IMG/VR virus record: IMGVR_UViG_3300048586_000548
Span: 29,494-93,493 of that record
Source of the DNA: a virus
Length of the DNA: 64,000 nt
Strand: one strand, 5' to 3'
The notes beneath the pieces are model-generated. The model was given only the letters and a program-made list of their open reading frames with translations, was not told where the DNA came from and ran no database searches. A program made the position numbers and the translations under genes. Positions 3 through 61,250 of this stretch are shown piece after piece (the first letter of the stretch is position 1; each line of letters begins with the position of its first letter).

Positions 3-794
3 GAGCGGTTCAAGGACTTCCACGAAGTGCCGACACGTCGGTACTGGGCGTTCCGAGGTACCCACGCCCACGCCATCGTGGAGGGTGCGCAGGACTTGAT
101 CGCGCAGTACGGCTGGCTGCAAGAGATTCGGATGGCCACGGAGTTGACGTACGATCTGCCGCAGCCCGTGTTCGAGAACGGCGTGTGGACCGGCGACTTT
201 GATTCCACCCAAGACCTGATCATCAAGGTCCGGGGCACGTGTGACGCGTATAACCCGTTGCGGGGTCCGGACTTGGTGGACTGTAAGTCGATGGCGGACA
301 AGAAGGTCGACATGATGATCAAGGGGTCCACCCCCGGCACGTACAGCAAGAACCTGCAGGACAGCTGGGTGGCCCAGCTCAACATTTACCGGTACCTGAT
401 CAGCAAGACCCCGGTGCCTGCCGAGGTGCACGCGGCGTACGCGTCCTTCGGGCTGCCTGCGCTCACGGATCCGTTGTTCCCGGCCCCGGAGCGGTTGTTC
501 ATCCAGGGCATTGCGATGATGTCGCACCCGGTGAGCGGGTCGCGGCTGGCCCACAAGCAGTACGGCAAGTACACGATCTACGACATCGACCACGTGCCGG
601 TGTGGTCGCTGCAGGACATTGAAGACTTCATCCGGCCGCAGGCGCTGATGTGGTACAAGGCGCTGAACATGAAGCAGACCCCGCCGGTGGTCCCGAAGGA
701 CAAGGACTGGCTGTGCCGGAGCTGCGCATTTGAGGGAAAAGACTGCTTCCCCGCGGACGAGCGCGGCCAGGAAGCCCCCTTCCCCGGGCCGTAA
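3..794 (+). CDS. PD-(D/E)XK (Cas4/RecB-like) nuclease, 5' end outside the window
   Basis: The frame is open to the left edge, so the N-terminus is missing; GTG at 27 is only the first start codon inside the window. About 263 residues remain. An RGTHAH segment near the visible start resembles the first histidine motif of RecB/Cas4-type nucleases. VRGTCDAY followed by DLVDCKS gives the acidic residue and D-x-K of the PD-(D/E)XK core. The C-terminus has C-x2-C-x6-C (CRSCAFEGKDC), the kind of cysteine cluster that binds 4Fe-4S in Cas4/AddB-type enzymes; a fourth Cys could lie in the missing part. Phage members of this family process DNA ends during recombination or replication. The stop codon TAA lies inside the GTAAGGT box of the next promoter. 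Confidence 0.8.
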   Translation, partial: ERFKDFHEVPTRRYWAFRGTHAHAIVEGAQDLIAQYGWLQEIRMATELTYDLPQPVFENGVWTGDFDSTQDLIIKVRGTCDAYNPLRGPDLVDCKSMADKKVDMMIKGSTPGTYSKNLQDSWVAQLNIYRYLISKTPVPAEVHAAYASFGLPALTDPLFPAPERLFIQGIAMMSHPVSGSRLAHKQYGKYTIYDIDHVPVWSLQDIEDFIRPQALMWYKALNMKQTPPVVPKDKDWLCRSCAFEGKDCFPADERGQEAPFPGP

Positions 795-815
795 GGTTTT
801 CGTCCGCTCGTCGAA
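791..815 (+). promoter_or_regulatory. Putative phage promoter GTAAGGT-N15-GAA (early + strand operon)
   Basis: GTAAGGT at 791-797, exactly 15 bases, then GAA at 813-815. The same bipartite element with identical spacing occurs on the - strand at 13978, 15606, 28690, 43676, 55551 and 60199, each time ahead of a gene start. This is the only + strand copy and heads the operon starting at 848, 32 bases downstream. The -35/-10 reading is inference from fixed spacing and placement. Confidence 0.65.
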
Positions 816-849
816 TAGGGTTGCACCGCTTACTGGAGCGCAACCCTAT
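815..849 (+). repeat. Perfect 10-bp inverted repeat spanning -10 box to start codon
   Basis: Arms 815-824 (ATAGGGTTGC) and 840-849 (GCAACCCTAT) are perfect reverse complements around a 15-base loop. The first arm begins on the last A of the GAA box and the second includes the first two bases of the ATG at 848. The Shine-Dalgarno GGAG (835-838) is in the loop. It could be an operator, or an RNA hairpin exposing the ribosome site if transcription starts early enough. Confidence 0.6.
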
Positions 850-1249
850 GACGAGCAATCTCTCAGACGCTTTCACCTCCGCCTACACGCTGGCCTACAC
901 GGCCCGCGTGGCGCAGGGGAACGTCGTCGGAGAAGGCTCAGCGCCCTTCCGAGCGGTGTTCAGCGCGCTGGTGGCTGGGGCCCAGCGATGGGCGGACACC
1001 CTGAGCGATCGGCACACCGACCGGTACGAGCTGTTGACGGTCTCTCCGATCACCCCCTCACCCAGTTTGGAAATTTCCCACCCGCTGGGCTTGGCTCATC
1101 AGGTGGAGCGCGCGCTGCACAACTTCCAGATCCTGCTCGCAGCGTTGCGGATCCCCTACCTGGACGATCCGCTGACGCTCGCAGTGTTGACAGAGGTGCA
1201 GCGGGAGGCTGCGCACCTGTCCCGGACGCTTTCTGCCCAGATGGGCTAA
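848..1249 (+). CDS. Small hypothetical phage protein (133 aa)
   Basis: Start chosen at ATG 848 because GGAG lies at 835-838; an upstream TTG-initiated extension lacks a ribosome site. The protein begins MTSNLSDAF and appears mostly alpha-helical, with no membrane segment, cysteine cluster or catalytic motif I recognise. It is the first gene after the GTAAGGT promoter at 791 and sits between the nuclease and the SSB-like gene, so a role in early DNA metabolism is plausible but not shown. Confidence 0.65.
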   Translation: MTSNLSDAFTSAYTLAYTARVAQGNVVGEGSAPFRAVFSALVAGAQRWADTLSDRHTDRYELLTVSPITPSPSLEISHPLGLAHQVERALHNFQILLAALRIPYLDDPLTLAVLTEVQREAAHLSRTLSAQMG

Positions 1250-1272
1250 ACCACTTTTTCAGCGAGCAAACT

Positions 1273-1773
1273 ATGGCGAAGACTCTGCGCTTTCGGGTGC
1301 ACAACTGCAAGGCTGTCAGCAAGAACTCCCTGATGGTGTTCGATCTGGCGATCGGCTATCAGGACGAGGACACGTTCGTGGGCGTCGTGGACGTGCGCGG
1401 CTGCTGGCTCAAGCAGAAGAACGACGGCTCCGGCAACTACGTGTCGTTCCCCTCGAAGCAGCGCTTTACGCGGGACGGTGAAGCGGTGAAGGACGACAAC
1501 GGGTACAACGTCTACGACAACATCGTGGATCTGTACCTCGAACTGGGGGCCAATCCCGACAAGGCAGACAAGCGGGCGCCGACCAAGGCGGCCTGGGCCT
1601 TTCGGAAGTGGCTGATCGACGAGGCCACGAAGATGTACAAGGAGCTGGGGGCCTCGGCTCCGGCCGCGGCCGCTCCGGCGGCGAAGCCTGCCAGCAAGCC
1701 CGCGAGCAAGCCTGCCCCGGCGCCCATGCCGGATGCGGATGATGACGACGGGGACGGCGGCTACCCCTTCTGA
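1273..1773 (+). CDS. Single-stranded DNA-binding protein-like, acidic C-terminal tip
   Basis: 166 aa from ATG 1273. Residues 1 to about 130 are a compact domain with many beta-prone segments. Next is a low-complexity Ala/Pro/Lys linker with repeated ASKP units, then an acidic tip DADDDDGDGGYPF ending in Phe. That order (folded domain, flexible linker, acidic tip with terminal aromatic) is the hallmark of SSB proteins and T7 gp2.5-type proteins, whose tip recruits polymerase and helicase. The OB-fold itself is not provable by eye. Its neighbours are a nuclease and ribonucleotide reductase, which fits replication. Its stop overlaps the next start (TGATG). Confidence 0.65.
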   Translation: MAKTLRFRVHNCKAVSKNSLMVFDLAIGYQDEDTFVGVVDVRGCWLKQKNDGSGNYVSFPSKQRFTRDGEAVKDDNGYNVYDNIVDLYLELGANPDKADKRAPTKAAWAFRKWLIDEATKMYKELGASAPAAAAPAAKPASKPASKPAPAPMPDADDDDGDGGYPF

Positions 1774-2114: not shown

Positions 2115-2148
2115 GCCGTCGTAGGACTAACCACACAATCGAAAACTC

Positions 2149-2178
2149 GTGGTGGGGTCGACCTACTGATCCCACTAC
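2149..2178 (+). promoter_or_regulatory. Leader hairpin upstream of ribonucleotide reductase
   Basis: Arms 2149-2156 (GTGGTGGG) and 2171-2178 (CCCACTAC) pair over 8 bp with one G-U. The 14-base loop contains TCGACCTACT, the same ten bases as in the loop of the leader hairpin at 28630-28664. It begins five bases after a GAA (2141-2143) preceded by GTAGGA, possibly a degenerate form of the GTAAGGT promoter. Confidence 0.45.
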
Positions 2179-2193
2179 TCACTGAGGGTTTGC

Positions 2194-5100
2194 ATGCGCA
2201 CGCCACCGTTCACGCTGTCTGACGACTTTTTGGCCCCCTACCAGACCATCACTCCGCCCTTCGGCTTCAACGGCCTGGGGGAGTTGGTGTATTTGCGGAC
2301 GTACAGCCGCGTCAAAGCGGACGGCACGCAAGAACGGTGGTGGGAAACCGTGCGCCGCGTGGTGGAAGGCACGTACACCATGCAGAAGCGCTGGATCACT
2401 GAACACCACCTGGGCTGGAGCGAGCGCAAGGCGCAGCGCTCGGCGCAGGAGATGTACGATCGCATGTTCTACATGAAGTTCCTGCCGCCGGGTCGCGGGC
2501 TGTGGGCCATGGGCTCGCCGCTGACGGAAGGTCGGGAGACTTTTGCGGCCTTGAACAACTGCAGTTTTGTCAGCACGAAGGACCTGGCATCGGACCTGGC
2601 TGATCCGTTCACGTTCCTGATGGACGCCTCGATGCTGGGCATCGGGGTGGGCTTCGACACCGCTGGGGCAGGCATGCTGGCGCTGCACGCGCCGAACCCG
2701 CTGCTGGCTGAGACTTACGTCGTGCCGGACACCCGTGAAGGCTGGGTGGAAGCCTTGAAGCTGAAGCTGCTGTCGTACTTCTGCCCGGATCAGGGTGTGG
2801 TGGAGTACGACTTCTCGCTGGTGCGTCCCGAGGGGGAGCCCATTAAGGGCTTCGGTGGGGTGGCGGCGGGCCCTGGTCCGCTTAAGGACCTGCTGGGCGC
2901 CGTGGACGGGGTGCTCGAGCGCGAGCGGGCAACCGGCGACGGCACGTTGAGCGTGACTGGGATCACAGACATTTGCAACCTGACCGCCAAGTGCGTGGTA
3001 GCAGGTAACGTGCGTCGAAGTGCTCTCATTAGTTTCGGCGAAGCCGACGACGAGGAATTCCTCGACCTGAAGAATTACGAAGTGAATCCGCATCGCGCTG
3101 CATACGGGTGGACCAGCAACAACTCGGTGTTCGCCAAGCTTGGCATGGACTACGGTCCGAGCACTGAGCGCGTGGTGCGCAACGGTGAGCCGGGATACAT
3201 GTGGCTGGAGAACGCGCAGGCCTACAGTCGCATGGTGGACGAGGCCGATTTCAAGGACGCGCGCGTGATGGGGACCAACCCCTGTGGTGAACAAGGATTG
3301 GAATCGTATGAGCTGTGCTGTGTCTCGGCCGACACTCGGATCCATACTCGCGCAGGTGCGCTGCCGATTGGAGACCTCGTTGGGCAAGCTGTCGAGGTCT
3401 GGAACGGTGCAGAGTGGTCGGAAGTCACACCATACCTCGCGGGGTACAACAAGCAGATGTACCGGGTTACGCTGTCTGACGGCTCGTTTCTCGATGTGAC
3501 CGACAACCATCGTTGGCTGGCGCGCCCCGACACAGCCCGCAAGTTCCGGGACATGACAACTCTGCAGCTGACGCCCGGCGATGTATTGCCTGAGTTCTCA
3601 CTGGGAGACGTCGTTGGCGAAGCGCAGCCGATGGCGTACGAGTACGGCTTTTTTGCGGGTGATGGATACATGGACAAGGGTGTCCCCATGCTGGCGCTGT
3701 TCGGGGAGGCGAAACAGTCTATCACAAGCTCCATCTCGGGGCGCGTCTATGCGGAGGAGTTCCCGAAGGGGTACAACGTTTCGCGTCAGCGTGTCAACTT
3801 GGTGGACGTGTGTGATGCTGCGCTTGCGACACAGCTTCGGCGCAGTGACGGTCTTCCCGCGGAGGTGTTTACCTGGGACCGCGAGAGTACGGCGCAGTTT
3901 ATCGCTGGATACATCGATGCTGACGGGTCCATTAGCAATTCCGGAACGGGCGGGGAAGGGCTCAAACTGCACGGCCCTGAAGGAAAGATGCGTGACGTGC
4001 AAACGCTGCTGCGGCGTATTGGTGTTGACCACGCGTCCGTGTATGTACTCAAGGGCCAGAAGAGCACGCTGACCATCAATGGCCGGGAGACGCATCGCAA
4101 TTATGACCAGTGGGTTTGCCAGGTCCCCTCCTTCGAGGCGGATGCGGTACCCACTCGGGTCAAAGTGCGTTCTTCCACCGCGAGTCGGTTTGCAAAGAAC
4201 AATGCCCACCCTGAGGGTGCGCTGATTGACCGCGCACGGAAGCAGCGGGTGGTCAGCATTGTGCCGTTGGGTATGCAGGACAGCTACTGCTTCACCGAAC
4301 CGAAGCGCGGTATGGGCGTGTTCGGCAACGTACTGACCTACCAGTGCCTGGTGGAAACGTTCCCAACAAACCACGACTCGCTTGAAGACTATCAGCGCAC
4401 CTTGAAGTTCGCGTACTTGTACGGCAAGACGGTCACCCTCGGACGCACGCACTGGGAGCGCACGAACCGGGTGATGCTCCGCAACCGCCGCATCGGATTG
4501 TCGCAGTCGGGCATTCAGCAGGCCGTGGCGAAGCTGGGCATCGAGGAGTACCGAGAGTGGTGCGAGGCAGGATACGCCACCGTGCAGTACTACGACAAGG
4601 TGTATTCAGAGTGGCTGGCGATTCCGCGCTCGATCAAGGTCACCACGGTCAAGCCCTCGGGGTCGGTGTCGCTGCTGGCAGGCGCCACGCCGGGTATGCA
4701 CTGGCCGGAGGCGTTGACGTACGTGCGCCGCATGCGCCTGGGCCGCAACAGCGATCTGCTGCCTGCACTGCAGGCCGCGGGGTATCCGATCGAACCCGCG
4801 GTGGGCAGTGAAGACTCGACGTTGGTGGTGGAGATTCCGGTCCGCATCGGCGATGCCGTGCGCCCAGCCCACCAAGTGTCGATGTGGGAACAGCTGGCGA
4901 TGGCCGCGTTTCTCCAGCGCTACTGGTCGGATAACCAGGTCTCGGCGACGGTCACCTTTGATCCGGCGACGGAAGGTCCGCAGCTGGCGCATGCGCTGGA
5001 CTACTACCAGTACCAGCTCAAGGGCATTTCGTGCTTGCCGCGCACGCCTGCCGGGGCCTACGCCCAGATGCCATACGAGGCGATCACGGTCGAGGAATAC

Positions 5101-5199
5101 GAAGCACGTGCCGCGGCGCTGACCCCCGTGCAGTTCGGGTCGACGCACGACGAGGCCGTGCCTGAGCGATTCTGCTCTAATGACACCTGTACGGTGTAA
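2194..5199 (+). CDS. nrdJ: Class II adenosylcobalamin-dependent ribonucleotide reductase with intein
   Basis: 1001 aa precursor; about 659 aa after removal of the intein (residues 376-717). It reduces ribonucleoside di- or triphosphates to deoxy forms for phage DNA synthesis. NPCGEQ at 362-367 supplies the conserved Asn, thiyl-radical Cys (C364) and Glu. C123 (NNCSF) and C375 match the active-site disulfide pair of the Lactobacillus leichmannii enzyme; C375 is 11 residues after C364, as in that enzyme. The C-terminal CSNDTC (994-999) matches its C-x4-C thioredoxin-reducible pair. No B subunit gene is nearby, as expected for class II. The start at ATG 2194 follows a GAGGG ribosome site. The thioredoxin-like gene at 5530 may be its reductant partner. 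Confidence 0.92.
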   Translation: MRTPPFTLSDDFLAPYQTITPPFGFNGLGELVYLRTYSRVKADGTQERWWETVRRVVEGTYTMQKRWITEHHLGWSERKAQRSAQEMYDRMFYMKFLPPGRGLWAMGSPLTEGRETFAALNNCSFVSTKDLASDLADPFTFLMDASMLGIGVGFDTAGAGMLALHAPNPLLAETYVVPDTREGWVEALKLKLLSYFCPDQGVVEYDFSLVRPEGEPIKGFGGVAAGPGPLKDLLGAVDGVLERERATGDGTLSVTGITDICNLTAKCVVAGNVRRSALISFGEADDEEFLDLKNYEVNPHRAAYGWTSNNSVFAKLGMDYGPSTERVVRNGEPGYMWLENAQAYSRMVDEADFKDARVMGTNPCGEQGLESYELCCVSADTRIHTRAGALPIGDLVGQAVEVWNGAEWSEVTPYLAGYNKQMYRVTLSDGSFLDVTDNHRWLARPDTARKFRDMTTLQLTPGDVLPEFSLGDVVGEAQPMAYEYGFFAGDGYMDKGVPMLALFGEAKQSITSSISGRVYAEEFPKGYNVSRQRVNLVDVCDAALATQLRRSDGLPAEVFTWDRESTAQFIAGYIDADGSISNSGTGGEGLKLHGPEGKMRDVQTLLRRIGVDHASVYVLKGQKSTLTINGRETHRNYDQWVCQVPSFEADAVPTRVKVRSSTASRFAKNNAHPEGALIDRARKQRVVSIVPLGMQDSYCFTEPKRGMGVFGNVLTYQCLVETFPTNHDSLEDYQRTLKFAYLYGKTVTLGRTHWERTNRVMLRNRRIGLSQSGIQQAVAKLGIEEYREWCEAGYATVQYYDKVYSEWLAIPRSIKVTTVKPSGSVSLLAGATPGMHWPEALTYVRRMRLGRNSDLLPALQAAGYPIEPAVGSEDSTLVVEIPVRIGDAVRPAHQVSMWEQLAMAAFLQRYWSDNQVSATVTFDPATEGPQLAHALDYYQYQLKGISCLPRTPAGAYAQMPYEAITVEEYEARAAALTPVQFGSTHDEAVPERFCSNDTCTV
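3319..4344 (+). other. Intein with LAGLIDADG homing endonuclease inside nrdJ
   Basis: 342 aa, residues 376-717 of the precursor. It starts with Cys376 (CVSADTRIHT, block A), has the block B T-x2-H pattern at T436-H439, LAGLIDADG-type helices at about 484-492 (FFAGDGYM) and 569-578 (AGYIDADG), and ends GNVLTYQ followed by Cys718 as the +1 residue. The HINT domain self-splices; the endonuclease spreads the element. The C-terminal residue is Gln and the penultimate one Tyr, instead of the usual His-Asn. It sits directly after redox Cys375, so the reductase needs splicing to be active. Confidence 0.9.
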
Positions 5200-5209
5200 G
5201 GGGACGACG

Positions 5210-6782: not shown

Positions 6783-6788
6783 CGGTCG

Positions 6789-7175: not shown

Positions 7176-7261
7176 AAGCCTCGACGCACTTTAGAAGTTG
7201 GGCAGGAATCCTAGGTGACCCCGCCCCCGCGCGCAACCCCTAACGACGTCTCCTGCAGGAC

Positions 7262-7284: not shown

Positions 7285-7330
7285 GCCCCGCGCAAACCCG
7301 CATTCCATAAGGGCTTTCCGGCTCCGCCTG

Positions 7331-7516: not shown

Positions 7517-8701
7517 TCAGTCCACCTCCATCACCGCGCGGACGTCGGCCTCTGACACCAGCTGGTAGTGGCGCTGCAGGGTTTCGATGTTCTTCCACCC
7601 GCCCGCAAACGCCACGTCCACCACCGGCAGGTGCTTGCGCTTGGTGGCCCACAACCGCCGGTACGGGTGGAACTTTCCACCTTCCAACGGAGGCACACCA
7701 GCTGTCTTTTCTGCGGACTGCAAACACGCCGCGGCGTAGTCGCCGTGCCAGTGCTCCTGGGGGTTGCTGATCTTAGGGAACAACCAAGGCCCTGGCACGT
7801 CGAGGGCTGTACGGGCCTCCAGCAAGGCCGCCAGGCGCGGCTGGAGCCACGAACTCACCGGCACCCACCCTGCCATACCTTCCTTGTCGGACTCCGCGCG
7901 CTTGTACACGCGCTCGAGTTGTACGTCCTCGAGCCGCAGTGCGCACAACGCCGAAACGCGCCACCCCAACGCTTTGACCAGATCCAGCAGCCCACCGAAC
8001 AACCCTTGCGAACCCACCTGGTCTGCCACGGCACGCACCGCGTCGAAGCGCTCGTCCGACGCGATAGGCCGCCGGGGCTGCGGGGTGTCGGGAATCACGA
8101 CCTGCACGAGTGGGCTTCGAGTGATCAGCATCGCGGGGTTCTTCATCCCCAAGTTCACCACCCGACGAAGCCACTCCAAATCCAATCCCACCACGCGATC
8201 GGTGCAGTTGGCCTTGAGCGTCGTGTCCGGAATGTTCAACGTCCCGGCTTTGCGCTGCAGCTTAAAGCGCTCCAAGATCACCGGAGGCAGTGCGTGCACC
8301 GGTTGATGCAGCGGCAACACCGCGCGCCAAATGCGGAGCTCCAGGGCATCGGTCTTGGCCTGCTTGGGGCGGCTCAGGGGCAGCCAATATTGGACGTACC
8401 AGTCCAGGAGCTGGGCCCAGGTCGTGCCCGGATCGCGGGTGGTGCCTTCGCGCACCGCGTACAATTCCGTGGCCAGCTCGAGGGCCGCGGCCTTGGCCTT
8501 CGTGAGCACCTTGTCAGTCAATTGACGGTACCGGCGCTTCCGGGTGTTGGGATCCGTCCAGCGCAGCAACAACGGAGCTCCGGGACGGCGCCGAAGCACC
8601 GCCACCTTCGCGCCGTAGTGTCCCACCGAAGCGAGTTGTTCCATGGGGAAAGAAGCTAGCGGGCCGGGTTCCGTTACACAAATGGTGACATTGGTGACCA
8701 C
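7517..8701 (-). CDS. int: Tyrosine recombinase (phage integrase)
   Basis: Up to 394 aa. The catalytic domain is in the C-terminal half: the first Arg in GWRVSALCALRLEDV (about residue 247), H-x2-R in FHPYRR (about 344), the GGW segment and the nucleophile Tyr in LQRHYQ (about 378). The N-terminal part resembles an arm-binding plus SAM-like core-binding domain. The GTG start at 8701 falls within the repeat block at 8680-8699; an ATG at 8644 is an alternative. Neither has a good Shine-Dalgarno. It should catalyse recombination between the attP core at 7331-7372 and a host tRNA-Pro gene. Repeats at its own start suggest autoregulation. Confidence 0.9.
   Translation of the reverse strand: MVTNVTICVTEPGPLASFPMEQLASVGHYGAKVAVLRRRPGAPLLLRWTDPNTRKRRYRQLTDKVLTKAKAAALELATELYAVREGTTRDPGTTWAQLLDWYVQYWLPLSRPKQAKTDALELRIWRAVLPLHQPVHALPPVILERFKLQRKAGTLNIPDTTLKANCTDRVVGLDLEWLRRVVNLGMKNPAMLITRSPLVQVVIPDTPQPRRPIASDERFDAVRAVADQVGSQGLFGGLLDLVKALGWRVSALCALRLEDVQLERVYKRAESDKEGMAGWVPVSSWLQPRLAALLEARTALDVPGPWLFPKISNPQEHWHGDYAAACLQSAEKTAGVPPLEGGKFHPYRRLWATKRKHLPVVDVAFAGGWKNIETLQRHYQLVSEADVRAVMEVD
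8680..8699 (+). repeat. TTGGTGACC repeat pair at the integrase start (set 3)
   Basis: AATGGTGAC from 8681 and a perfect TTGGTGACC at 8691-8699, overlapping the 5' end of the integrase frame. Same family as the repeats near attP, here placed where binding could repress int. Confidence 0.5.
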
Positions 8702-13953: not shown

Positions 13954-13978
13954 TTCGCTCGGCAGGGCGCCACCTTAC
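13954..13978 (-). promoter_or_regulatory. Putative phage promoter GTAAGGT-N15-GAA (dut/accessory unit)
   Basis: On the - strand GTAAGGT runs 13978-13972 and GAA 13956-13954, 15 bases apart. It follows directly after the terminator hairpin at 13987-14010 and precedes the GTG at 13924, as expected for a new transcription unit. Confidence 0.65.
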
Positions 13979-15080: not shown

Positions 15081-15132
15081 CCACAGTTCCCCGATTCAAT
15101 AGGCTACGAGTAAGTCGAATCGGGGACTGTGG
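15081..15132 (-). promoter_or_regulatory. Long hairpin covering the ribosome site of the gene at 15079
   Basis: Arms 15081-15097 and 15117-15132 pair over 16 bp with one bulged base. The downstream arm on the - strand contains GGGGAA, the only Shine-Dalgarno candidate, and ends one base before the ATG at 15079. No T run follows, so it is unlikely to be a terminator. It could hold translation down until opened. Confidence 0.55.
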
Positions 15133-15581: not shown

Positions 15582-15606
15582 TTCGTCGGTGACGCGTAGA
15601 CCTTAC
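15582..15606 (-). promoter_or_regulatory. Putative phage promoter GTAAGGT-N15-GAA (small-gene unit at 15.5-14 kb)
   Basis: - strand GTAAGGT 15606-15600, GAA 15584-15582, spacing 15. The TAA stop of the upstream gene (15603-15605) is part of the GTAAGGT box. Downstream gene starts at 15571. Confidence 0.65.
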
Positions 15607-21755: not shown

Positions 21756-24700
21756 TTAGCTCCCACCCCGGCGCGCTGGTACCAAGACCAGGTGCGTCGC
21801 CAAATAAGTCGTCTGTGCCAGTGCCTTGCCCACGGCCACTGGCTGATGTCCGGTCGCGAACGGGGACAACAGCGTTGCCTCGAACTTTTCCGAACTGTTG
21901 TGGCCGAACGCCCATCCCGAGAGCAGTGATCCGCCCGTGATGTCGTCCTTCCAGCCCACCCATGCGCCCGCGTCGTACCGCACGCTGTTGTTCACCGAGC
22001 TGCCCTGGTAGCGCGTGCGCCACCAGTACGCAGCGGCGTACGCTTCCCGGCCACTCTCAAAGCTGGGGAACAGTCCGGGCGATTCCCACACGTACTCGGA
22101 CCGGAACTTCAGCCCAAACCATTCCAGCACATTGGTATGAAACTTCGGATACGCAGGGTTCTTGCGCGCCATGCCCGTGACAATCTCTTCGTACACATAG
22201 TTGTTGATGTAGTACGGCCCCGACGGCGCAATTTTGACCGGGGCTTCCCCGGGGCGCTTGTTGCGGCTGTACATCCCGCGCAGCTCTTCGTAATGCGTCC
22301 ACTCGACCTGCCGCACGTAATCAAGGGTGTCGCCAGTAACGGACAACGCGCCCGACCCTACGGCGAGCTTAAAGGGCCACTGGCTGGCGTCCACCTTGGA
22401 CTTCGGCCAGAAGCGCAGCGGAGAGCCCGTCGGCTCGCGCACCGGGCTCGACCACACTTCGGCCGCCGCGATGTCCGCCCCTTCGTTCTTCTCTTGCCCG
22501 TCCACCTCGCCCACGTAGTCGTGCCGCTCACTCTCGGTCGTCGCAAAGCAGTAGAACTGCCGCAAGTCGATTTCAGAGTTCTCGGTCAGGTTCAACGCGG
22601 CGTAGCTCGGCGTTTTGGTGCCCAAGTACCGCGGCACGCACATCGGCGGCACCAGGTGGTACGGATGCAGATCTCGGCTGATCGACGGCACCCACGTGGG
22701 ATTGGTCTCCCACGTCCAGGTGCCCAGCGCGGCGGGGAGTACCCGGTTATTGGTCGCCCACTGCGCGGGCATGATGCTATCGGCCAGTCCCAAGTGCGCG
22801 ATGGTGTACTGGTCCGCGGCCAGTCCGAGGGTGAGCCACGGCTCCTGGGCGAACCCGATCGTAGTGGCCAGCCCGCTGGTCGTCATCTCGTGCTGCCACC
22901 ACCAATGCTCCAGCAGGTGGTCCAACAGAGACCCCGAGCTCGCGCCGTGCGCCGCCAACTGCCCCGACTTCCACCCCGGCTCCTTGGTCCACTGGCGACA
23001 CACCACCGTACGCCGGTGCGCGTACATGGCATCGTCTTCCCACGTCACCGCCGTGGTCTGGTTACTGATCTTGGCCTGGTCCACGAAGCTGCGGTTGATG
23101 CCCCAACTGGATCGTCCGGACCGGTCCGTGGCGTACGCCGACAGGTAGAAGAGGTAGCTCATGAGTGCGAAGTTCAACCGCGCGCGACCTGAGGCGATGC
23201 CCCGGGTCTCGGACCAACCCGGCACCTCCTCGAGCTGCAAGTAATCGCCGAATTCCAGCGACTGCGGCAACCCAGTGAACTCGAAGGCCGCTCGGAAGTC
23301 CTGCGGGCGGAACACCCACTCGGTGACCCCCGCGTCACCGTCGGTCCACTTGAACGTCTTCGCCTTGCGGTACCCCTGGTCATTGAAGCTCAGGGTGTGC
23401 TCGTCATTGTGCAGCAGCCGGTTCACCAAGATGCGCTGCTCGACCGTCGTTTCCGGGTACACTTGTCCCGTGAACTGTGCCGACTGGTCGCCAATGATTG
23501 CCTTGAGGTGCACCTGGCGATTCAACTTCACTGAAATTTCCGACGTCCGGCCCGCCCACAGGCCCCCGGGGCGATCCGCCACCTTGAAACGCACGCGCAC
23601 GGGCTTGTCGTTGGCGATATACGCAGCAAGACTCGTCTTCGACCCCGAACCGCCCGCGGGCGTTTCCCAGCCGCCCGTACCGCCCGGAACGTAGCCGCCC
23701 GCGCTGGTCCAGTCGTCGATCTTGAGCTCGATCTTGGTGGGCTCCGGCAGGTGCGTCAGCACCCGCAACTCGGGCAACGCCAAGTCCTGATCGTCGATCA
23801 GCCGCAGTTCCGCATCCACCGGATCCGTCAAGGCCTCGAGGTACACAAACCACTCCCCGAACGTCCCCTGCCCGATCAGCGGCTTGCCGCTACCGTCCAA
23901 GCCGGTCCACACCACCGCCAGCTCGCCCAGCTTGCCGCCGCTGAGCTCTTGGTTCCAGGCATAGAAGCCCTTGCCGATGCGCGGCCGCTGGTCCGGCTCG
24001 AACGTGCCCTCCACCAGCGTGGCGTACAGCTCGGACTGCGTGGCATTCCACTCGCCCAGCTGGTCCACGCCGTCCCACTTGAACTGCCGCTTAGCGCCGA
24101 CCGTCAGGTACTGCCAGTGCCGCTCCGGTTCGGCTGGGTCGGCCGTCGGCTCGGTCAACCAGGCCACGATCGTATTGTCCACCGCTGAACGCACCGACAA
24201 TCGGTAGAGCCCGTCCGCCAGGACGTCCATCTGTGCGGTAACGACCTCCCCCAGTTCCGAAGCGTACGGGTCGTAGAACGGGCTGTACGGCAGGGTATTG
24301 CTGAGCGGCACCTTCGCGGCCGTGTACGGCTCTGCGCTCGCCGCCATGCGCCGGTACCGGACGTTGAACGTCGGGTACGCCGGGCGGGCGAAGCGCGCCG
24401 CGACGCCGTCACCCTGCTTCCACGGCAGGGCGAGCTGCGGCGTCGCGTAGTCCACAGTGAAGAATTCATGGTACGGCGTGTTGGCCAACCATCCGGACAG
24501 CGCGCCCACCACGTGACTGCCGTTCACGCGCGCGCGCCAGTCGATACCCAGTGTGACCGGATACTCCAACGTAAACTTCTTGCCCACGCGCACTTCCACC
24601 GCACGATTCCCGGTCCGGGGCACCGTGACGATTTCGTAGTAGAACAACCCCAACTTGTCCGTACCCGCCGGGAACATCTGGCCGGACGGCAACTCGGCAA

Positions 24701-28629: not shown

Positions 28630-28664
28630 CTCCCCGTGACACTAGTAGGTCGAGTCACGGAGAG
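28630..28664 (-). promoter_or_regulatory. 5' leader hairpin with shared loop TCGACCTACT
   Basis: - strand arms CTCTCCGTGAC and GTCACGGGGAG (11 bp, one G-U) around the loop TCGACCTACTAGT. It starts just after the GAA box at 28668-28666, so it would be the first structure in the transcript. Ten loop bases are identical to those of the nrdJ leader hairpin at 2149-2178. Confidence 0.55.
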
Positions 28665-28665
28665 G

Positions 28666-28690
28666 TTCGTCGAAGCTAGGGAAACCTTAC
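28666..28690 (-). promoter_or_regulatory. Putative phage promoter GTAAGGT-N15-GAA (tail tip unit)
   Basis: - strand GTAAGGT 28690-28684, GAA 28668-28666, spacing 15. The TAA stop of the tape measure gene (28689-28687) lies inside the box. Confidence 0.65.
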
Positions 28691-39614: not shown

Positions 39615-39695
39615 TACTCCCCCGGAAAGCCGTATAGTCCACCCTCAGAGCGCGATCGCTCCCCATTAAGTCGGCCCCACCAGGGGGCAAACGAA

Positions 39696-43651: not shown

Positions 43652-43676
43652 TTCTGCCCCGCACCAACGACCTTAC
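43652..43676 (-). promoter_or_regulatory. Putative phage promoter GTAAGGT-N15-GAA (connector/tail unit)
   Basis: - strand GTAAGGT 43676-43670, GAA 43654-43652, spacing 15, about 40 bases ahead of the ATG at 43611. It lies wholly in the intergenic gap after the capsid gene. A short CACTA/TAGTG hairpin follows the GAA. Confidence 0.65.
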
Positions 43677-52702: not shown

Positions 52703-53092
52703 TTACTCCCCCTCCACCCCGTCATCGTCGCGCTCCGCCACCCGCCGTGGGACCGCCACACGACCTCGGGTGTAGTTCATCACCAGGGCGAGTTCCCCAG
52801 GCGCGCGTTCGACGATTTCTTCCCCCACTTCCATGCGAGCATCCAGCGACTCCGTTGACGACAGCTTTTCTTTGCGCAAGAAGTCGATCATGCGGAACTT
52901 CACCGACTGGCGGATGAAAGCGTCCGGATTGTCCCGGGCCAGCCTGGGCTGGCAATTCCACAAAGCGACCAGGCCCTCCTGGTACAAGTCCTCAACCAGG
53001 GCGTCGTTCGTCATCGCCAGCTTGCGCGCGATGGCGCGAATGACCGACTTGTACTTCGGGTAGTACGTGGCTTCAAATTCTTCATTGGTCAT
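52703..53092 (-). CDS. Sigma70 region-2-like protein (half of a split sigma factor)
   Basis: 129 aa from ATG 53092, with GGGAGCGG upstream. Residues about 10-80 match sigma region 2: YYPKYKSVIRAIARKL (2.1), VEDLYQEGLVALW (2.2, the core-binding D-L-x-Q-E-G signature) and FIRQSVKFRMIDFLRKEK (2.3-2.4, which melts and reads the -10). The remaining 45 residues show no region 4 helix-turn-helix. The gene just upstream is region-4-like. In Bacillus, RsoA (region 2) and SigO (region 4) form one working sigma in the same gene order. Confidence 0.75.
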   Translation of the reverse strand: MTNEEFEATYYPKYKSVIRAIARKLAMTNDALVEDLYQEGLVALWNCQPRLARDNPDAFIRQSVKFRMIDFLRKEKLSSTESLDARMEVGEEIVERAPGELALVMNYTRGRVAVPRRVAERDDDGVEGE

Positions 53093-53176: not shown

Positions 53177-53440
53177 TCAATCGGAGTGCAATGCGGCCAG
53201 TTTACGAAGCGCCGCAGCACTGATGTAGCGAATGGCGGCTTCTGAGAGGGGCTTGCCGCGGAATCGCGAGCCCACGTACCAGCCGACCGAGGCATACGTC
53301 GGAGGCCAGCGCTGGTCAGGCCACGGCCAATCGGTCGGGCGGTAGATGCCATAGACCAGCTCGAGGACCAGGCGATGCTCCGGGCCCAGCTGCGCCAAGA
53401 GCTGCTCCACCGCCACCCGGTTCAACACGACGTCTTCCAT
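53177..53440 (-). CDS. Sigma70 region-4-like protein (other half of a split sigma factor)
   Basis: 87 aa from ATG 53440, with GGAGG seven bases upstream; the ATG overlaps the ruvC stop. Pattern: VEQLLAQLGPEHRLVLELVYG (4.1-like), a Pro/Trp-rich insert, then YASVGWYVGSRFRGKPLSEAAIRY followed by AALRKLAAL, the helix-turn-helix spacing of region 4.2, which contacts the -35. The insert between helices is longer than in standard sigma factors. With the region-2-like gene 84 bases downstream it would make a bipartite sigma. Confidence 0.65.
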   Translation of the reverse strand: MEDVVLNRVAVEQLLAQLGPEHRLVLELVYGIYRPTDWPWPDQRWPPTYASVGWYVGSRFRGKPLSEAAIRYISAAALRKLAALHSD

Positions 53441-54120
53441 CACGCAGCCTCCTCCGCCGTGGGGGCCTCGTGGCTGCGGTACAACACGTGCCAGGCCCAG
53501 TTCAGCGCGATCGCGTCTGCGTCATCGTCGTCGCTGAACTGCTTCTTGGTGTCGTTACCCTCAAAGCGCAGGCGAAGGCCGAAGGTCTTGTTGACCAGGG
53601 CCACCACGATCTTCTTGTTGTCTTCGTGAGAGCGGCCGCGCGTGGCCTTGATCGCCTTCTTGACCAGGTGCGCAGCCACCGCGCACTCCTTCTCGATCTC
53701 CAGCCCATAGTGCGCGAAATGCGCCGCCTCGATCACCCCGACGTACCGTGTCAGGATGCCGAAGGTGTGACGCATGCGTCCCTGGTAGGGCGCCTCGTAC
53801 ACCACCACGTGCGGCGCCCACTGGTGGAACATCGCGAGCAGCCAACTCCGAAACGCGTTCAGCCGCTCGCCGTGTCCCTTCCCCTCCTGGAGATACCGCC
53901 CGTAGGCGACCAAGTGTCCGTCGTCAAACACCGCCCAGCCACACGCCTTGGAGCTCGAGTCCAGTGACAGCACCCGCTCGGCGATTCCGACCCCCACGAA
54001 CGCTGCCGTTGGAGCCGGGCGCTTCGACACTCGCTTCCGCTTCGCCTTGGCCCGTGGCGGCGTGGCCACCTCGGGGCGCAGTTTCAGCCGCTCCTTCTTG
54101 CCCTTACGCCGGGTCGGCAT
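53440..54120 (-). CDS. ruvC: RuvC-like Holliday junction resolvase
   Basis: 226 aa. A basic N-terminal extension of about 45 residues (MPTRRKGKKERLKLR) precedes the RNase H fold: VLSLDSSSKACGWAVFDDG (first catalytic Asp), VVVYEAPYQGRM (Glu), and DDDDADAIALNWAW (C-terminal Asp pair). It resolves branched replication/recombination DNA before packaging. Located just before the sigma pair and terminase genes, as in other phages where resolvase feeds packaging. Confidence 0.85.
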   Translation of the reverse strand: MPTRRKGKKERLKLRPEVATPPRAKAKRKRVSKRPAPTAAFVGVGIAERVLSLDSSSKACGWAVFDDGHLVAYGRYLQEGKGHGERLNAFRSWLLAMFHQWAPHVVVYEAPYQGRMRHTFGILTRYVGVIEAAHFAHYGLEIEKECAVAAHLVKKAIKATRGRSHEDNKKIVVALVNKTFGLRLRFEGNDTKKQFSDDDDADAIALNWAWHVLYRSHEAPTAEEAA

Positions 54121-54150
54121 TCCGGCTCGACGCGACGAGGACAGGGATAC

Positions 54151-54744: not shown

Positions 54745-54794
54745 GTGAGTTGAGACCTAGCAGGCCCATCCGTGCGGCCTGAGAGCGGACCGCC

Positions 54795-55429: not shown

Positions 55430-55526
55430 GCGTGCTCTCGTCAGTTAGCGCCTTGACGCGCGATGCGTCGTTAGCTACCTTTATTGTGGGTCATCCTAGC
55501 CCACACCGGCAGCGTATACAGCAACA

Positions 55527-55551
55527 TTCCCCGACCTTCCCGAGACCTTAC
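55527..55551 (-). promoter_or_regulatory. Putative phage promoter GTAAGGT-N15-GAA (middle/late unit)
   Basis: - strand GTAAGGT 55551-55545, GAA 55529-55527, spacing 15. The TAA stop of the upstream gene (55550-55548) is in the box. Downstream lies a 98-base leader with a TGTGGG/CCCACA hairpin and then the genes leading into ruvC, the sigma pair, terminase and capsid. Confidence 0.65.
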
Positions 55552-55826: not shown

Positions 55827-58177
55827 GCGACCTCTTTCATCCAGTACGGCACCACCCCATTCGAGCCCTTCGGGAACTCCGCCACCACCGGCACGTCGGG
55901 ACAGTAGAACTTCCCCGCTTCCTCCATGCAGTGGCGCATCACGCCCGCCATTTCTTCGGCGATCGCGTCGTCCACTTCCGCCACGATTTCGTCGTGGACC
56001 ATGTTCACAATGAACGCCTGGTCCTGCCACCCGCGATCGTCAATCTCCCGCTGGATCAAGCACGCGGCAGCCTTGGTCATCGTTGCCGAACCGCCCTGAA
56101 TCGGCGCATTTGCGCCTTCGGTGTACGTCCCCTTCGCGTCCTCAGGAAAGAAGCGCAGCCGCCCGCACGGGGCGCGCACCCAGCTCACGGATCCGCCCGC
56201 CACCTGGTCCCAAATCTTGGGTCCCTTCCCCTTCGGGTCGGCCGCGTCAGAGCAGGCGTTCTGGAACTCCAGGATCCGCTCGTGGACCTCGAAGAACCGC
56301 TTGTGCATCTTGCGCGCGTCCTCCATGGTCGGCGCAGGAACGTGTCCCGCCACGATCGCGTCCACCATGCCCAGCGTGAGCTGGTCCCGGAGCTTCGGGA
56401 CGCCCGATCGATACGCCATGGAGAGCACGATGGCCTTGAAGTACTGGCGCTCGAGCTTACCCTCCGGGGTCGACAGGTCCGGGCGATGGCCCAGCATGGC
56501 CTCGGCCACGGCGAGGTACAGGTCGTCGTTGTCCAGGTACGTCCGCAAATACGTCGGATCCTTGGACAGCTGGGCGAGCAGTCGGGGCTCCTGCTGGGAA
56601 TAGTCAGCGATCACGTAGCTCCGCCCCGGCGCGGGCCGGAAACACGCACGGTACCGGGGGTCCCCAGGGATCTGCTGCAGATTCGGGCTCATGCTGAGCC
56701 GCCCCGTATTGGTCGTGGCCTGGTGCACTTCCGTGTGCACACGGCCAGTGTCTGACCGCACATTCTTGCGCAGCCACTCAATACCAAACGACGACACGCG
56801 CTGGTCGAACTTGGAGTACCGAATCAACAGATCCACGAGGTCCACCGGGAGCTGTCCGCGCGCCTTCCGCAGCTGCAGCGACTTCTTGTCCGCATCCGTC
56901 AGGATGCAGAACCGGTCTTCCGGCAGCACCCAGTCCGGAATCTGCTCAGGACTGACCTTCCGTCCCCGGGAGGCCTGAGCTTCCACCCACTCCGAGCCGT
57001 GCCCCTGCTTCAGGCGCAGCAGCTCGTCCGTGTCGGCGACGATCTGGTGCTCCCAGCCGATCTGCCCGCAGTGCCCCTTGATTGCCCATCGGATCTGCTC
57101 CGAGCTGGAGTAGTTGACCGGCTTCGCCAGTCGGGGGTACAGCGGGCGCGCCTTATGCTCGTCCGTGTCGAACAAATCGACCTGGTGGGTCAGCGGGCGC
57201 ACGAACTCGTCCAGCGCCTGCTCGGTCTTGGCCAGCTCGGAAATGGCTTCCTGGTACAAGGCCCGCCAGGCGGCACGATCGATCCCGATGCCCTGGTGCT
57301 CGAGCTCCCCCAAGACCGGGATCAGGTCCATCTCCACCTTGATCACCCCCCGCAGCCCGCGCTCCTCGATCAGCTTCCGCTGCGCGGCCGCGATCACGAA
57401 GGGGTACACCACGTCCGTCGCCGCGTAGGCGATCTGGCGCAGCGTGTGCTCGCCTGGCGGCGTGGCGTAGAACGACACCCGCAAGTCCTTGTCCTTGTCG
57501 ATGTCCAGTCCGGTATACCGATCCATCAGCGACCACATCGAGCACAGCTTGTAGGCCGAGCGCTCTTCCCCCTTCCCCGGCGCGGACCCCTTCGGGGAGA
57601 GCAGTCCAGCGCGGATGACCATCTCGGCCACCTGCGTGTCCGCCAACTGCCGCGCGCGTACACCGTACTGCGCCCGCAGGAAACGGTATTCGAATCGAAT
57701 GTTCTGGCCCAGCTTGGTCACGGCCCGCGATTCGATGACCGCGAAGATCGCGGCCAGATCGTCCGCGGTGAAGCAACGCACGTCCAGCACCACCGCGTGT
57801 GGGTCGCCCTCGGCCGGTCGCTCAACGCCCAGCTGAAGCGTGGCAATCTTGGCGTCCAGGGCGTTCAGCCCCGACGTTTCCAAGTCCAAGGCGACCACGC
57901 GGTGCTTCAGCACCCACGCCAGCACCGCAGGCAATTCCACGGGACGCGTGACGTACCAGTACCGCACATCCGCGCGGGTCTCGGTCGAGAGCGGCAAGTC
58001 GAGCCACAACTGCAACGGGGTCGTGTCCCCGGCAGGCTCCACCCGCTGGCAGACGTGCCCGTGCGCGGCGAGATCCGCCCGCTGGGCGTCGAGGTCAAAA
58101 GTCAGTGAGAGGATGGGTTTCTCCAGCGAAAAGGTCAGACGGCACGGCCCGCTGCATGGCATCAGGCGCGACTTCAA
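55823..58177 (-). CDS. Family A DNA polymerase with 3'-5' exonuclease
   Basis: Up to 784 aa; the true start is unclear (ATG 58177 or 58162), as both overlap the helicase gene and lack a good ribosome site. Exonuclease: VVALDLETSGLNALDAKIA (about 96) gives the D-x-E pair. Polymerase: DYSQQEPRLLAQ (motif A, about 525), KAIVLSMAYRSG (motif B, O-helix) and VNMVHDEIVAE (motif C, about 729). It is the replicative polymerase, paired with the primase-helicase gene directly upstream, similar in plan to T7-like replisomes. Confidence 0.93.
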   Translation of the reverse strand: MKSRLMPCSGPCRLTFSLEKPILSLTFDLDAQRADLAAHGHVCQRVEPAGDTTPLQLWLDLPLSTETRADVRYWYVTRPVELPAVLAWVLKHRVVALDLETSGLNALDAKIATLQLGVERPAEGDPHAVVLDVRCFTADDLAAIFAVIESRAVTKLGQNIRFEYRFLRAQYGVRARQLADTQVAEMVIRAGLLSPKGSAPGKGEERSAYKLCSMWSLMDRYTGLDIDKDKDLRVSFYATPPGEHTLRQIAYAATDVVYPFVIAAAQRKLIEERGLRGVIKVEMDLIPVLGELEHQGIGIDRAAWRALYQEAISELAKTEQALDEFVRPLTHQVDLFDTDEHKARPLYPRLAKPVNYSSSEQIRWAIKGHCGQIGWEHQIVADTDELLRLKQGHGSEWVEAQASRGRKVSPEQIPDWVLPEDRFCILTDADKKSLQLRKARGQLPVDLVDLLIRYSKFDQRVSSFGIEWLRKNVRSDTGRVHTEVHQATTNTGRLSMSPNLQQIPGDPRYRACFRPAPGRSYVIADYSQQEPRLLAQLSKDPTYLRTYLDNDDLYLAVAEAMLGHRPDLSTPEGKLERQYFKAIVLSMAYRSGVPKLRDQLTLGMVDAIVAGHVPAPTMEDARKMHKRFFEVHERILEFQNACSDAADPKGKGPKIWDQVAGGSVSWVRAPCGRLRFFPEDAKGTYTEGANAPIQGGSATMTKAAACLIQREIDDRGWQDQAFIVNMVHDEIVAEVDDAIAEEMAGVMRHCMEEAGKFYCPDVPVVAEFPKGSNGVVPYWMKEVA

Positions 58178-60143
58178 AGCGCGACACGGCTTGGTGCAGC
58201 AGCAGGTCGATCGCCACTCCGGCTTCGCCCTCCCGCTGCTTCACGATGGTCAGCTTGCGTTGCGACACAGCGCCGGGGGTGCGCTCGCCCGTCAGGATCA
58301 GCGCCACGTCTGCATCCGCCTCGATGCGCCCCGTGCCCTTGAACCAGTTGATGGCCGGTTCGTCATTGGCTTCTTTGTTCCGCGACACCTGGGAGAACAA
58401 CACCACCGACTGGCGCAGCACCTTGGCCATGTACTTGAACTCGGCGGACAGCCGGGTCAGGCGGTCATAGTCACTGGCGCCCTCAACCCCGGTCGAAGTA
58501 GCGAACTGCAGGTAGTCCATGAACACGACCATCGGCTGCGCCAGCGCCAGGCGCTCACGCAGGATCGTGTCCTCCAGCAGATTCATGATCAGGTCCGGTT
58601 GGGCCGCGGAGTAGTGCGTGTAGATCGGCAGCCCGGTCAGCCGCGCCGCAGCGGCCGTCACCTCCGCGTCCTCCTCCGGCGTCAACGGCATTGGGTGCCC
58701 TGCCCACATCCGCTCGCCGCGAATCGCTCGCGAATCCACGCCGGACATCCGCGCCAACAGGCGCTCCTCGAAGCCCTCCTGGCCGGTCTCGGCGCTGAAC
58801 AGCAGCACCGGCACGCCCCGCTCGGCCAAGGACACGGCCGCATCGACCATCAAGGAGGTCTTGCCGATCGAGGGCAACGAGCCCACCACCGTCAACTCCT
58901 TCGGACGCAGTCGCGTGTACCGGTCCAGTCCCGCGATGCCCCACGTCGCTCCCGTAGGCACTTCGCCCCGGTTCCGCCGCCGCATCCGGTCCAGCGATCC
59001 AGCGTAGTTGGAGTGGATCATGGGTTCGTTGGTGTCCTGCACCAGCGACAGCAGATCCGGGTTCCCTCGGTGGTACGGCGCCCCGCTCGGGCACGCCTTG
59101 CATGCCTTCGAGGGGAAGTGCTCGCGGATGTACGCACAGCCCACGGGCGAGTGCCGCAGGGCTTGCGTGAACTTGTCGTCCGTTTCCTTGGGGGAGTAGG
59201 AGGGGTGGCCTTGGCTCACCAAGTGCGCCGCCTCGCGCCCGTGCTGGAAGCACGTGAGCTGCTGGATAGCCGCATACCACTCGGGTTCCTTCAGCCGGTG
59301 CTGTTCCGTAAACGCGTGCGCCATGAAGCTGCACCCGAAGTCCGAAATGAGCTTCAGCACCCCACGCTGCGGGTTCGCTGGGCGCCCGCGCGGTTCAGTT
59401 TCGCCCCACTCCACGACTTCACGCGGGGCCTCGTCGTACAGGCGCGTTTCAGTCGGCTGCTTCGCCTCGGGGGGAATCGCCCGCACCAAGACGTTGATCA
59501 TCTCCCGGGTGTTCAGGTACACCTGGGCGCAAAAGTCCTCGGGATCCAGCGGTTCGAAGGTGTCACGGTGGAGAAAAACACTCGCCCCTCCTGGCACCCC
59601 CGGACCCAGCGCGCTGGCCCATCCCGCCGGGGCCTGAGCCCCGAAAAACGGCAGCGCAATCAGATTCCCGTAGGGCTTGGTCTCGCTCACGGTGGTCTGG
59701 ACAGGGTACATCCGGTCGAAGCTCTCCGCGTCCAGCAACAGCGGCCGCAGCGCCCGCCGCACGTCCACCGCCGGGACGGGCTGGTCGAAAAACCCCCAAA
59801 TGTGCAACCCACGGCCCGAACGGGACTGCTCGAGATAGCATTGCAGTCCGGCGGATTCAAAGGCGTCGAGCTGCTTTGACGCCTGATCCAGCACGTCGGT
59901 GCCGTCGCTGTCCGTGTCAAAGTCCAGCGCAAACCACCACACCGTCGAGTCCGGCAAGAGCTGGTAGCGCCCGAGCAGCTGCTCTCCTGCGAGGTGCCCA
60001 CGGACGGCCTCGGCGGTCAGACCATCCTTCACCAGGACGTACCCCACCTTGCCGTTCACGCTGTCCTTCTTCGGGAACGCGCGCGCGTACACCTCGGTAC
60101 GTCCGTTGAACAGTCGCAGGGTTGACTCAATCAGCTCTGACAC
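58095..60143 (-). CDS. AEP-type primase fused to DnaB-like helicase
   Basis: 682 aa from GTG 60143, with a G-rich site upstream. N-terminal domain: FALDFDTDSDG (about 73) with the D-x-D metal pair and RSGRGLHIWGFFDQP, the S-x-H-type motif of archaeo-eukaryotic primases. A middle segment has cysteines (SKACKACPSGAPYH). C-terminal RecA-like helicase: GSLPSIGKTSL (Walker A, about 423), VVFMDYLQF (Walker B, about 541), LLFSAETG and VVLFSQVSR. It should unwind and prime at the fork. First gene behind the promoter at 60199, followed by DNA polymerase. Confidence 0.88.
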   Translation of the reverse strand: MSELIESTLRLFNGRTEVYARAFPKKDSVNGKVGYVLVKDGLTAEAVRGHLAGEQLLGRYQLLPDSTVWWFALDFDTDSDGTDVLDQASKQLDAFESAGLQCYLEQSRSGRGLHIWGFFDQPVPAVDVRRALRPLLLDAESFDRMYPVQTTVSETKPYGNLIALPFFGAQAPAGWASALGPGVPGGASVFLHRDTFEPLDPEDFCAQVYLNTREMINVLVRAIPPEAKQPTETRLYDEAPREVVEWGETEPRGRPANPQRGVLKLISDFGCSFMAHAFTEQHRLKEPEWYAAIQQLTCFQHGREAAHLVSQGHPSYSPKETDDKFTQALRHSPVGCAYIREHFPSKACKACPSGAPYHRGNPDLLSLVQDTNEPMIHSNYAGSLDRMRRRNRGEVPTGATWGIAGLDRYTRLRPKELTVVGSLPSIGKTSLMVDAAVSLAERGVPVLLFSAETGQEGFEERLLARMSGVDSRAIRGERMWAGHPMPLTPEEDAEVTAAAARLTGLPIYTHYSAAQPDLIMNLLEDTILRERLALAQPMVVFMDYLQFATSTGVEGASDYDRLTRLSAEFKYMAKVLRQSVVLFSQVSRNKEANDEPAINWFKGTGRIEADADVALILTGERTPGAVSQRKLTIVKQREGEAGVAIDLLLHQAVSRFEVAPDAMQRAVPSDLFAGETHPLTDF

Positions 60144-60174
60144 ATGCCCCCAAGCAGAAGTGGCCCACCTCGCG

Positions 60175-60199
60175 TTCCGCGAAGTGGACCACACCTTAC
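60175..60199 (-). promoter_or_regulatory. Putative phage promoter GTAAGGT-N15-GAA (replication unit)
   Basis: - strand GTAAGGT 60199-60193, GAA 60177-60175, spacing 15, 31 bases before the GTG at 60143. A near-perfect inverted repeat (60165-60174 / 60178-60187, one mismatch) is centred on the GAA box and could be an operator. Confidence 0.65.
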
Positions 60200-60217
60200 C
60201 CCGGGACCAGCGGCCGG

Positions 60218-60673
60218 TTAGATCGGCGCTGTCACCCGCACCACAAGGCTGTCTGCGCCAGGCACCACCAGATCATCGATCTTCATCCAGAACGCGCGAC
60301 TCTTGGGGTTCTTCGTCTCCCACGTGTTGATGCGCGTCCACGCCGTCGCCACCACCTGCACCGAGTCTCCGTACGCGCCCGTCCACACAATCTTTGCTTC
60401 CTTGCCGTTCGGCACGGGCACCGGCTGGCCGCCGAGGGTGATCACCCAGCGACAGCTGTTCACCGACGGATTGGCCGCCTGCCACGCCGCCGTGCCGCAG
60501 TCAATCGAGCGAGCCACCGTGGTGTCCGCCGCCGTCAGCATCGCACGCACCGGAAGCTCCGGCGTGTTCGGGACCACGACCGGCACCGGCTTGGGCGTCG
60601 GCTCAGGACGGGCTGCGCCCGTACAGCCGATGACCAGCGCCGCGACCGCGAAGTACGAGAAAAACTTACGCAT
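60218..60673 (-). CDS. Predicted lipoprotein (151 aa)
   Basis: ATG 60673. Signal peptide MRKFFSYFAVAALVIGC ends in a lipobox (V-I-G-C), followed by a Pro/Val-rich linker and a beta-rich domain with a Cys pair (about residues 58 and 74). It would be lipidated in the host envelope. Phage lipoproteins serve as superinfection exclusion factors or outer-membrane spanins; the gene follows a holin-like gene, so either is possible. Confidence 0.7.
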   Translation of the reverse strand: MRKFFSYFAVAALVIGCTGAARPEPTPKPVPVVVPNTPELPVRAMLTAADTTVARSIDCGTAAWQAANPSVNSCRWVITLGGQPVPVPNGKEAKIVWTGAYGDSVQVVATAWTRINTWETKNPKSRAFWMKIDDLVVPGADSLVVRVTAPI

Positions 60674-61194
60674 TACAGCTTCCCCTTTCGTGAAAATGAG
60701 CTCAGACTACCGGGCTGAGCGTTCGGCTGCGTCCGGGACAGCCGGAACGCCAGCGCCGTCGGGCCGGAGGCCGCCACAGCGCCCACCAGCAGAGCCGCGC
60801 CCATCTCGAGCAACTCAGGGCTCGCCTCGCCGCCAATCCACCGCACAGCTGCCAGGACGATCGCTGCCGCCAAAGCGTTCAGGCCGCGCTTCGACCAATC
60901 TCCCAGAGCCGCCACAGGGCGAATAAAGGACGCCAGGTACACCAGCACCGTCGCGAGCGCCGCAGCAATCGGATACTGGTACTTGATGAACAGCGCCTGC
61001 AACTGCTCCTGGAAGCTCAGGGCGGGCAGCACAGCCCCTGCGCTGTCCGCGGCGGCCGCAACGATGACCGTGTCCTGGGCGGACAGCAGTGTCGGAATCC
61101 CCGCCGCTGTGGCCAACACCACGCACACCGCCAGCACCCCGGCCACCAGCAAGGCCTTCTTCATGGCGATCAGCGCCTGCAGATTACGGGTCAT
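60673..61194 (-). CDS. Multi-pass membrane protein, holin-like candidate (173 aa)
   Basis: ATG 61194 with AAGGAG six bases upstream, 31 bases after the promoter box at 61226. Hydrophobic helices at about 10-32 (MKKALLVAGVLAVCVVLATA), 75-95, 102-118 and 125-145, with a basic C-terminus (RTQPNAQPGSLSSFSRKGKL). This pattern fits a holin or a phage membrane channel, but no endolysin is adjacent. Its stop overlaps the lipoprotein start. Confidence 0.5.
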   Translation of the reverse strand: MTRNLQALIAMKKALLVAGVLAVCVVLATAAGIPTLLSAQDTVIVAAAADSAGAVLPALSFQEQLQALFIKYQYPIAAALATVLVYLASFIRPVAALGDWSKRGLNALAAAIVLAAVRWIGGEASPELLEMGAALLVGAVAASGPTALAFRLSRTQPNAQPGSLSSFSRKGKL

Positions 61195-61225
61195 ACACAC
61201 TCCTTCGAGTAGGGTCCCAATAGCG

Positions 61226-61250
61226 TCCCTCGAGTAGACAAGGACCTTAC
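61226..61250 (-). promoter_or_regulatory. Variant GTAAGGT promoter (GGA in place of GAA)
   Basis: - strand GTAAGGT 61250-61244, then 15 bases, then GGA 61228-61226. It lies 31 bases before the ATG at 61194, the same distance as two perfect copies. One mismatch in the second box. Confidence 0.5.

Follow-up and report, generated by a model that had tools for sequence, protein, structure and literature searches.

A recurrent two-box element and a candidate split sigma factor in a phage group without a cultured member found

Introduction

To our knowledge, the separation of sigma regions 2 and 4 onto two proteins is rare, being known from one bacterial system and, in the form of a mimic, from phage T4. 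SigO-RsoA (YvrI-YvrHa) of Bacillus subtilis is a two-subunit sigma factor in which sigma4 and sigma2 are encoded by separate adjacent genes and activate their own operon (PMC8103513); its domain assignment is given differently in PMC10141391. The late transcription proteins gp55 and gp33 of T4 have been called a split sigma factor as well: gp55 docks in the manner of sigma domain 2, and gp33 mimics sigma4 on the beta flap but shares no sequence similarity with sigma and recognises no DNA sequence (PMC2988020). In phage SPO1, gp28 and gp34 are the sigma factors for the middle and late genes (PMC9429907).

Here we describe a repeated two-box element and a pair of sigma-like genes in a 64,000-nucleotide stretch of viral DNA (the window), which spans positions 29494-93493 of an IMG/VR virus record (G000). 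Three relatives were found in IMG/VR, a near-identical contig (G001) and two diverged ones (G002 and G003), in which the terminase-like protein is 78-79% identical.

Results

A two-box element directed at genes

The pattern GTAAGGT-N15-GAA, termed class I, occurs exactly seven times in the window and ten times in the whole 93,493-base record, and it was found with a mean of 0.01 copies (largest value, 1) in 100 dinucleotide shuffles of that record, while the reversed control pattern had no match in it. The element had been noticed in a sequence-only reading, whose claim of rarity by chance is borne out by these figures, and a rescan of the window recovered all eight of its positions, seven exact and one with GGA:

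791-815, plus strand: class I; the preceding gene ends in its TAA, next start 33 nt on; orthologous site in G002 and G003
13954-13978, minus strand: class I; a dUTPase-cluster gene starts 30 nt on; counterpart in both relatives
15582-15606, minus strand: class I; the preceding gene ends in its TAA; orthologous site in G003
28666-28690, minus strand: class I; the TAA ends a 2861-aa gene, and a class II element (see below) lies 38 nt further on
43652-43676, minus strand: class I; a structural-region gene of 247 aa starts 41 nt on; both relatives have an orthologous site
55527-55551, minus strand: class I, heading the sigma4 and sigma2 operon; the preceding gene ends in its TAA; counterpart in both relatives
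60175-60199, minus strand: class I, 32 nt before the primase-helicase gene; counterpart in both relatives
61226-61250, minus strand: class I with GGA for GAA, 32 nt before a start

Outside the window, exact copies are found at G000 9088+, 14713+ and 24447+, with an N14 version at 699+, and G001, which reaches past the end of the record, contains four further exact sites. The record has 12 GTAAGGT heptamers, ten of them followed by GAA at N15, one by GAA at N14 and one by GGA. Alignment of the sites extends the downstream part, the putative -10 box, to G-N-N-GAA-Y, with the G at offset 19 in 9 of 11 sites and C or T directly 3' of GAA in 10 of 11; the box, G-N-N-GAA, is slightly longer than the GAA originally proposed. 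Two one-mismatch matches, at 54083- and 60028-, both lie within genes and look like chance occurrences.

All 12 heptamers are intergenic according to gene calls from a simple purpose-made caller, which missed the primase-helicase gene, and intergenic DNA makes up 6.9% of the record. Each of them is directed towards the next gene on the same strand, and GTAAGGT is the top-enriched heptamer in the 130 nt upstream of gene starts. Its TAA doubles as the stop codon of the preceding gene at 7 of the 12 sites in the record, including the four of eight in the window that had already been pointed out. A start codon follows 30-41 nt downstream at five of the eight window sites, in agreement with the distance of about 30-40 bases given before; overall, the distance from element to start ranges from 29 to about 190 nt, so that class I is not a ribosome site. 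The spacing between the two boxes resembles a -35/-10 arrangement. The element is thus repeated, directional and upstream of transcription units, and we consider it very probable, judging from sequence and position, that class I is a promoter.

The boxes of class I differ from the TTGACA and TATAAT of the host sigma-70 consensus, as the sequence-only reading had remarked. Such host-type promoters were not above chance in two scanned regions; a looser sigma-70 pattern was discarded, having few intergenic copies, mostly directed away from genes. At G000 24447-24490 (+), upstream of an integrase cluster, class I overlaps a sigma-70-like TTGACA-N16-TATCAT. There are two tyrosine integrase genes, at window 7517-8572 and G000 24949-25926, the second adjoined by a RuvB-like ATPase, and the phage may therefore be temperate. 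No known RNA family (Rfam) was found in the window, and the literature searched held nothing relevant on GTAAGGT as a phage promoter.

A strong hairpin around the -10 box is clear at 8 of 35 class I sites, with a T run after it in several, and for that reason promoter-overlapping hairpins were rejected as the main feature of the element. One of them lies upstream of the primase-helicase gene:

60160-60192, minus strand: 15-bp hairpin with the GAA of the -10 box in its loop, followed by a weak T-rich tail; terminator-like

Other terminator-like hairpins enclosing the -10 box are found at G002 1538+ and 16990+ and at G003 14170+ (an example with a T run), 27829+, 67723+ and 76616-. A transcript arriving from upstream could stop at such a hairpin, while one begun in the 3' arm would not contain the 5' arm and could pass through, so one short stretch may both end one transcript and begin the next.

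The -10 box changes between relatives

In G002 and G003 the element takes the form GTAAG(G/A)-N13-(C/G/A)GTCAA, with 18 copies by this simple pattern, 16 of them intergenic. Five window sites (791+, 13978-, 43676-, 55551- and 60199-) have counterparts at the same genes or operons in both relatives, and a sixth (15606-) in G003. The -35 box is kept across the lineages, whereas the -10 box is G..GAA in the window phage and (C/G/A)GTCAA in G002 and G003, and the class I weight matrix of each lineage largely fails in a cross-scan of the other. Scanning the full genome and related phages, and comparing intergenic with coding DNA, had been suggested as checks of the proposal that the element defines a phage-specific promoter class; the ten exact copies in the record, the 12 of 12 heptamers outside gene calls and the common -35 box support that proposal, the element being directional, intergenic, spaced like a promoter and kept in two diverged relatives.

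No relatives beyond G001-G003 were found in viral sequence scans, genome contig scans or tblastn against cultured phages. The sigma genes and the terminase-like protein have no detectable relative among the cultured phages of the collection searched. Weak matches in L016 and L017 were rejected as relatives, since these are AT-rich contigs whose motif matches look like chance. The sigma genes, the change of -10 box between relatives and the second promoter-like class are all absent from the sequence-only reading.

A sigma factor apparently split in two

The operon headed by the class I element at 55527-55551 contains two sigma-like genes, the first of them preceded by a RuvC-like gene:

53177-53443, minus strand: sigma4, putative reader of the -35 box, 88 aa; AlphaFold pLDDT 85, with fold matches in the PDB; Pfam Sigma70_r4 E=0.0032, below cut-off
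52703-53092, minus strand: sigma2, putative reader of the -10 box, 129 aa; Pfam Sigma70_r2 E=5e-11 on a longer 148-aa ORF; without region 4

The Sigma70_r2 match is above the Pfam curated cut-off in all four records, with only one such match per record. Each of the three lineages has a single sigma-70 region-2 gene, of 129-130 aa and without region 4, whose matches are largely to ECF-type models; its AlphaFold model (pLDDT 57) was unusable. It is preceded in all three by the sigma4 gene, of 86-88 aa. For sigma4 the best Pfam match is Sigma70_r4, below cut-off in every lineage and with no Pfam detection in G002. The PDB matches of its AlphaFold model are nearly all sigma domain 4, the probability being as high as 1.00 and the target TM-score as high as 0.81; their E-values are 0.09 or worse, none being below 0.001, for a domain that is very short. 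Residues 71-82 of sigma4, IRYISAAALRKL, align with IRQIEAKALRKL of sigma70 region 4.2. A second sigma4-like match, at G003 1842-1904, was discarded, as it looks like a short excisionase/MerR-type helix-turn-helix protein.

The order of the two genes is the same in G002 and G003, with 60-69% identity, and both are under purifying selection (dN 0.11-0.29 versus dS of about 1-3 where computable). Sigma4 followed by sigma2 is the reverse of the order in a normal sigma factor. This order, and the separation of the two genes in all lineages, make a sequencing error or a broken gene unlikely. Sigma2 and sigma4, the latter assigned by its predicted fold, thus lie on separate adjacent genes in three lineages, and the pair appears to be a sigma factor split in two. 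The loop between regions 2.2 and 2.3 of sigma2 has the sequence QPRLAR in the window phage; in the relatives it is NPGRAK or TPNRAR. These differences are in step with the changed -10 box, a correspondence that, as one comparison over three lineages, is only suggestive. The operon with the sigma pair is headed by a class I element in all three lineages, which suggests positive feedback, that is, self-amplification.

A second promoter-like class

A further element, termed class II, has the form TTCGnnT-N15-CGACYTAnT and is likewise directed at genes. Across the three lineages the core CGACYTAnT was counted 28 times, with 21 copies in intergenic DNA, and each of the 17 intergenic CGACYTAYT copies is oriented towards the gene that follows it; the upstream box, TTCGnnT, is weak and lies 22 nt before the core. 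Class II heads structural genes, the ribonucleotide reductase gene and sigma2, and it may represent a late promoter class. Its cores in the window include:

2159-2167, plus strand: class II CGACCTACT, with the ribonucleotide reductase gene 35 nt downstream
15109-15117, minus strand: class II CGACTTACT
28644-28652, minus strand: class II CGACCTACT, in the loop of a conserved hairpin
39665-39673, minus strand: class II CGACTTAAT, upstream of a structural-region gene of 368 aa
53118-53126, minus strand: class II CGACCTAAT, between sigma4 and sigma2, 34 nt before sigma2; same place in all three lineages

The conserved hairpin, CTCCCCGTGACT-CGACTTATTAG-AGTCACGGGGAG, is found downstream of the very long gene (2861 aa in the window phage) at window 28630-28670, G002 about 41480 and G003 about 47155. 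The ribonucleotide reductase (window 2194-5199, 1001 aa) has a LAGLIDADG-containing insertion, probably an intein, which is absent from the 657-aa versions of G002 and G003. The primase-helicase gene (window 58095-60143) encodes an archaeo-eukaryotic (TOTE-type) primase domain fused to a DnaB helicase domain.

Discussion

Computation establishes the class I motif and where it lies, its retention in relatives with an altered -10 box, the homology of sigma2 and the sigma domain 4 fold of the predicted sigma4 model. The split sigma is the best candidate for its reader, and on balance we favour a model in which the two proteins act together on class I promoters. GTAAGGT would be the -35 box, read by the 88-aa sigma4, and G-N-N-GAA the -10 box, read and melted by the 129-aa sigma2; host core RNA polymerase would be redirected to class I by this two-subunit, ECF-like sigma factor, which would amplify its own production through the class I promoter at the start of its operon. 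Several points count against this assignment: genes that look early are also headed by class I, so that the sigma factor would be needed before it is made; the pair might in fact act on class II; typical ECF promoters have a spacing 2-3 bp longer than that of class I; sigma4 falls below the Pfam cut-off, its fold matches have high E-values, and the sigma2 model is poor; and the link between sigma2 and the -10 change comes from a single comparison among three lineages.

An alternative is a classical phage cascade, in which the split sigma would read class II at late genes, and class I would act earlier, recognised either by host polymerase carrying a host sigma or by an unrecognised phage factor. 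Class II is largely intergenic and gene-facing, comes with a weak -35 box of its own, and is found at the head of structural genes and immediately before sigma2; its box-to-box distance of 22 nt is closer to that of ECF promoters. Its core, however, is nearly constant despite the differences in the sigma2 loop, whereas the -10 box of class I changes along with them, and the class I boxes are unlike those of promoters read by a primary bacterial sigma, with no TAnnnT. We regard this cascade as rather unlikely, if the strongest of the alternatives.

A reading in which class I is a promoter for an alternative sigma of the host or for some unrelated factor of the phage, and the split sigma is incidental, is doubtful. 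The cultured phages and genome contigs searched contained no relatives that would allow a comparison with host promoters, which leaves room for such a reader; against it, the phage lineages share the -35 box but differ in the -10 box, and the phage encodes sigma domains of its own. We give a similarly low rating to a modular use of the sigma factor, in which sigma2 would pair with sigma4 at class I promoters but act by itself or with a different -35 reader at class II promoters, and the class II element between sigma4 and sigma2 would shift the ratio of the subunits and drive a switch from early/middle to late genes. That class I is not a promoter, and instead an operator or an RNA-level element (leader, processing site or translational signal), is very improbable: AAGG is similar to a ribosome-binding sequence and the TAA of the box often doubles as a stop codon, but the element is asymmetric, always directed at the next gene, has a fixed spacing between its two boxes and has no Rfam family in the window to go with it.

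The comparison yields a promoter map for a phage group for which no cultured member was found. Together, a phage pair with two-box promoters of its own and related phages in which only the -10 box is changed offer a way of asking which box each subunit reads and why a sigma factor would be split at all. We found no described example of a phage split sigma with a readable -35 box.

Among known systems, SPO1, likened here by the role of its phage sigma factors, differs in being a phage of low-GC Bacillus. Unlike T4 gp33, the phage sigma4 resembles a true region 4, and both promoter-like classes described here have a conserved upstream box, in contrast to the -10-only late promoters of gp55 and gp33. 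ECF (group IV) sigma factors consist, like the phage pair, of sigma2 and sigma4 only, and the -10 box CGTCAA of G002 and G003 resembles their CGTC boxes; the phage domains, however, are on two genes in reversed order, and the -35 box is not GGAAC-like. SigO-RsoA shares with the phage pair the layout of separate adjacent sigma4 and sigma2 genes, but it is a cellular stress-response sigma factor, whereas the pair described here is a putative phage factor with a different promoter, GTAAGGT / G..GAA.
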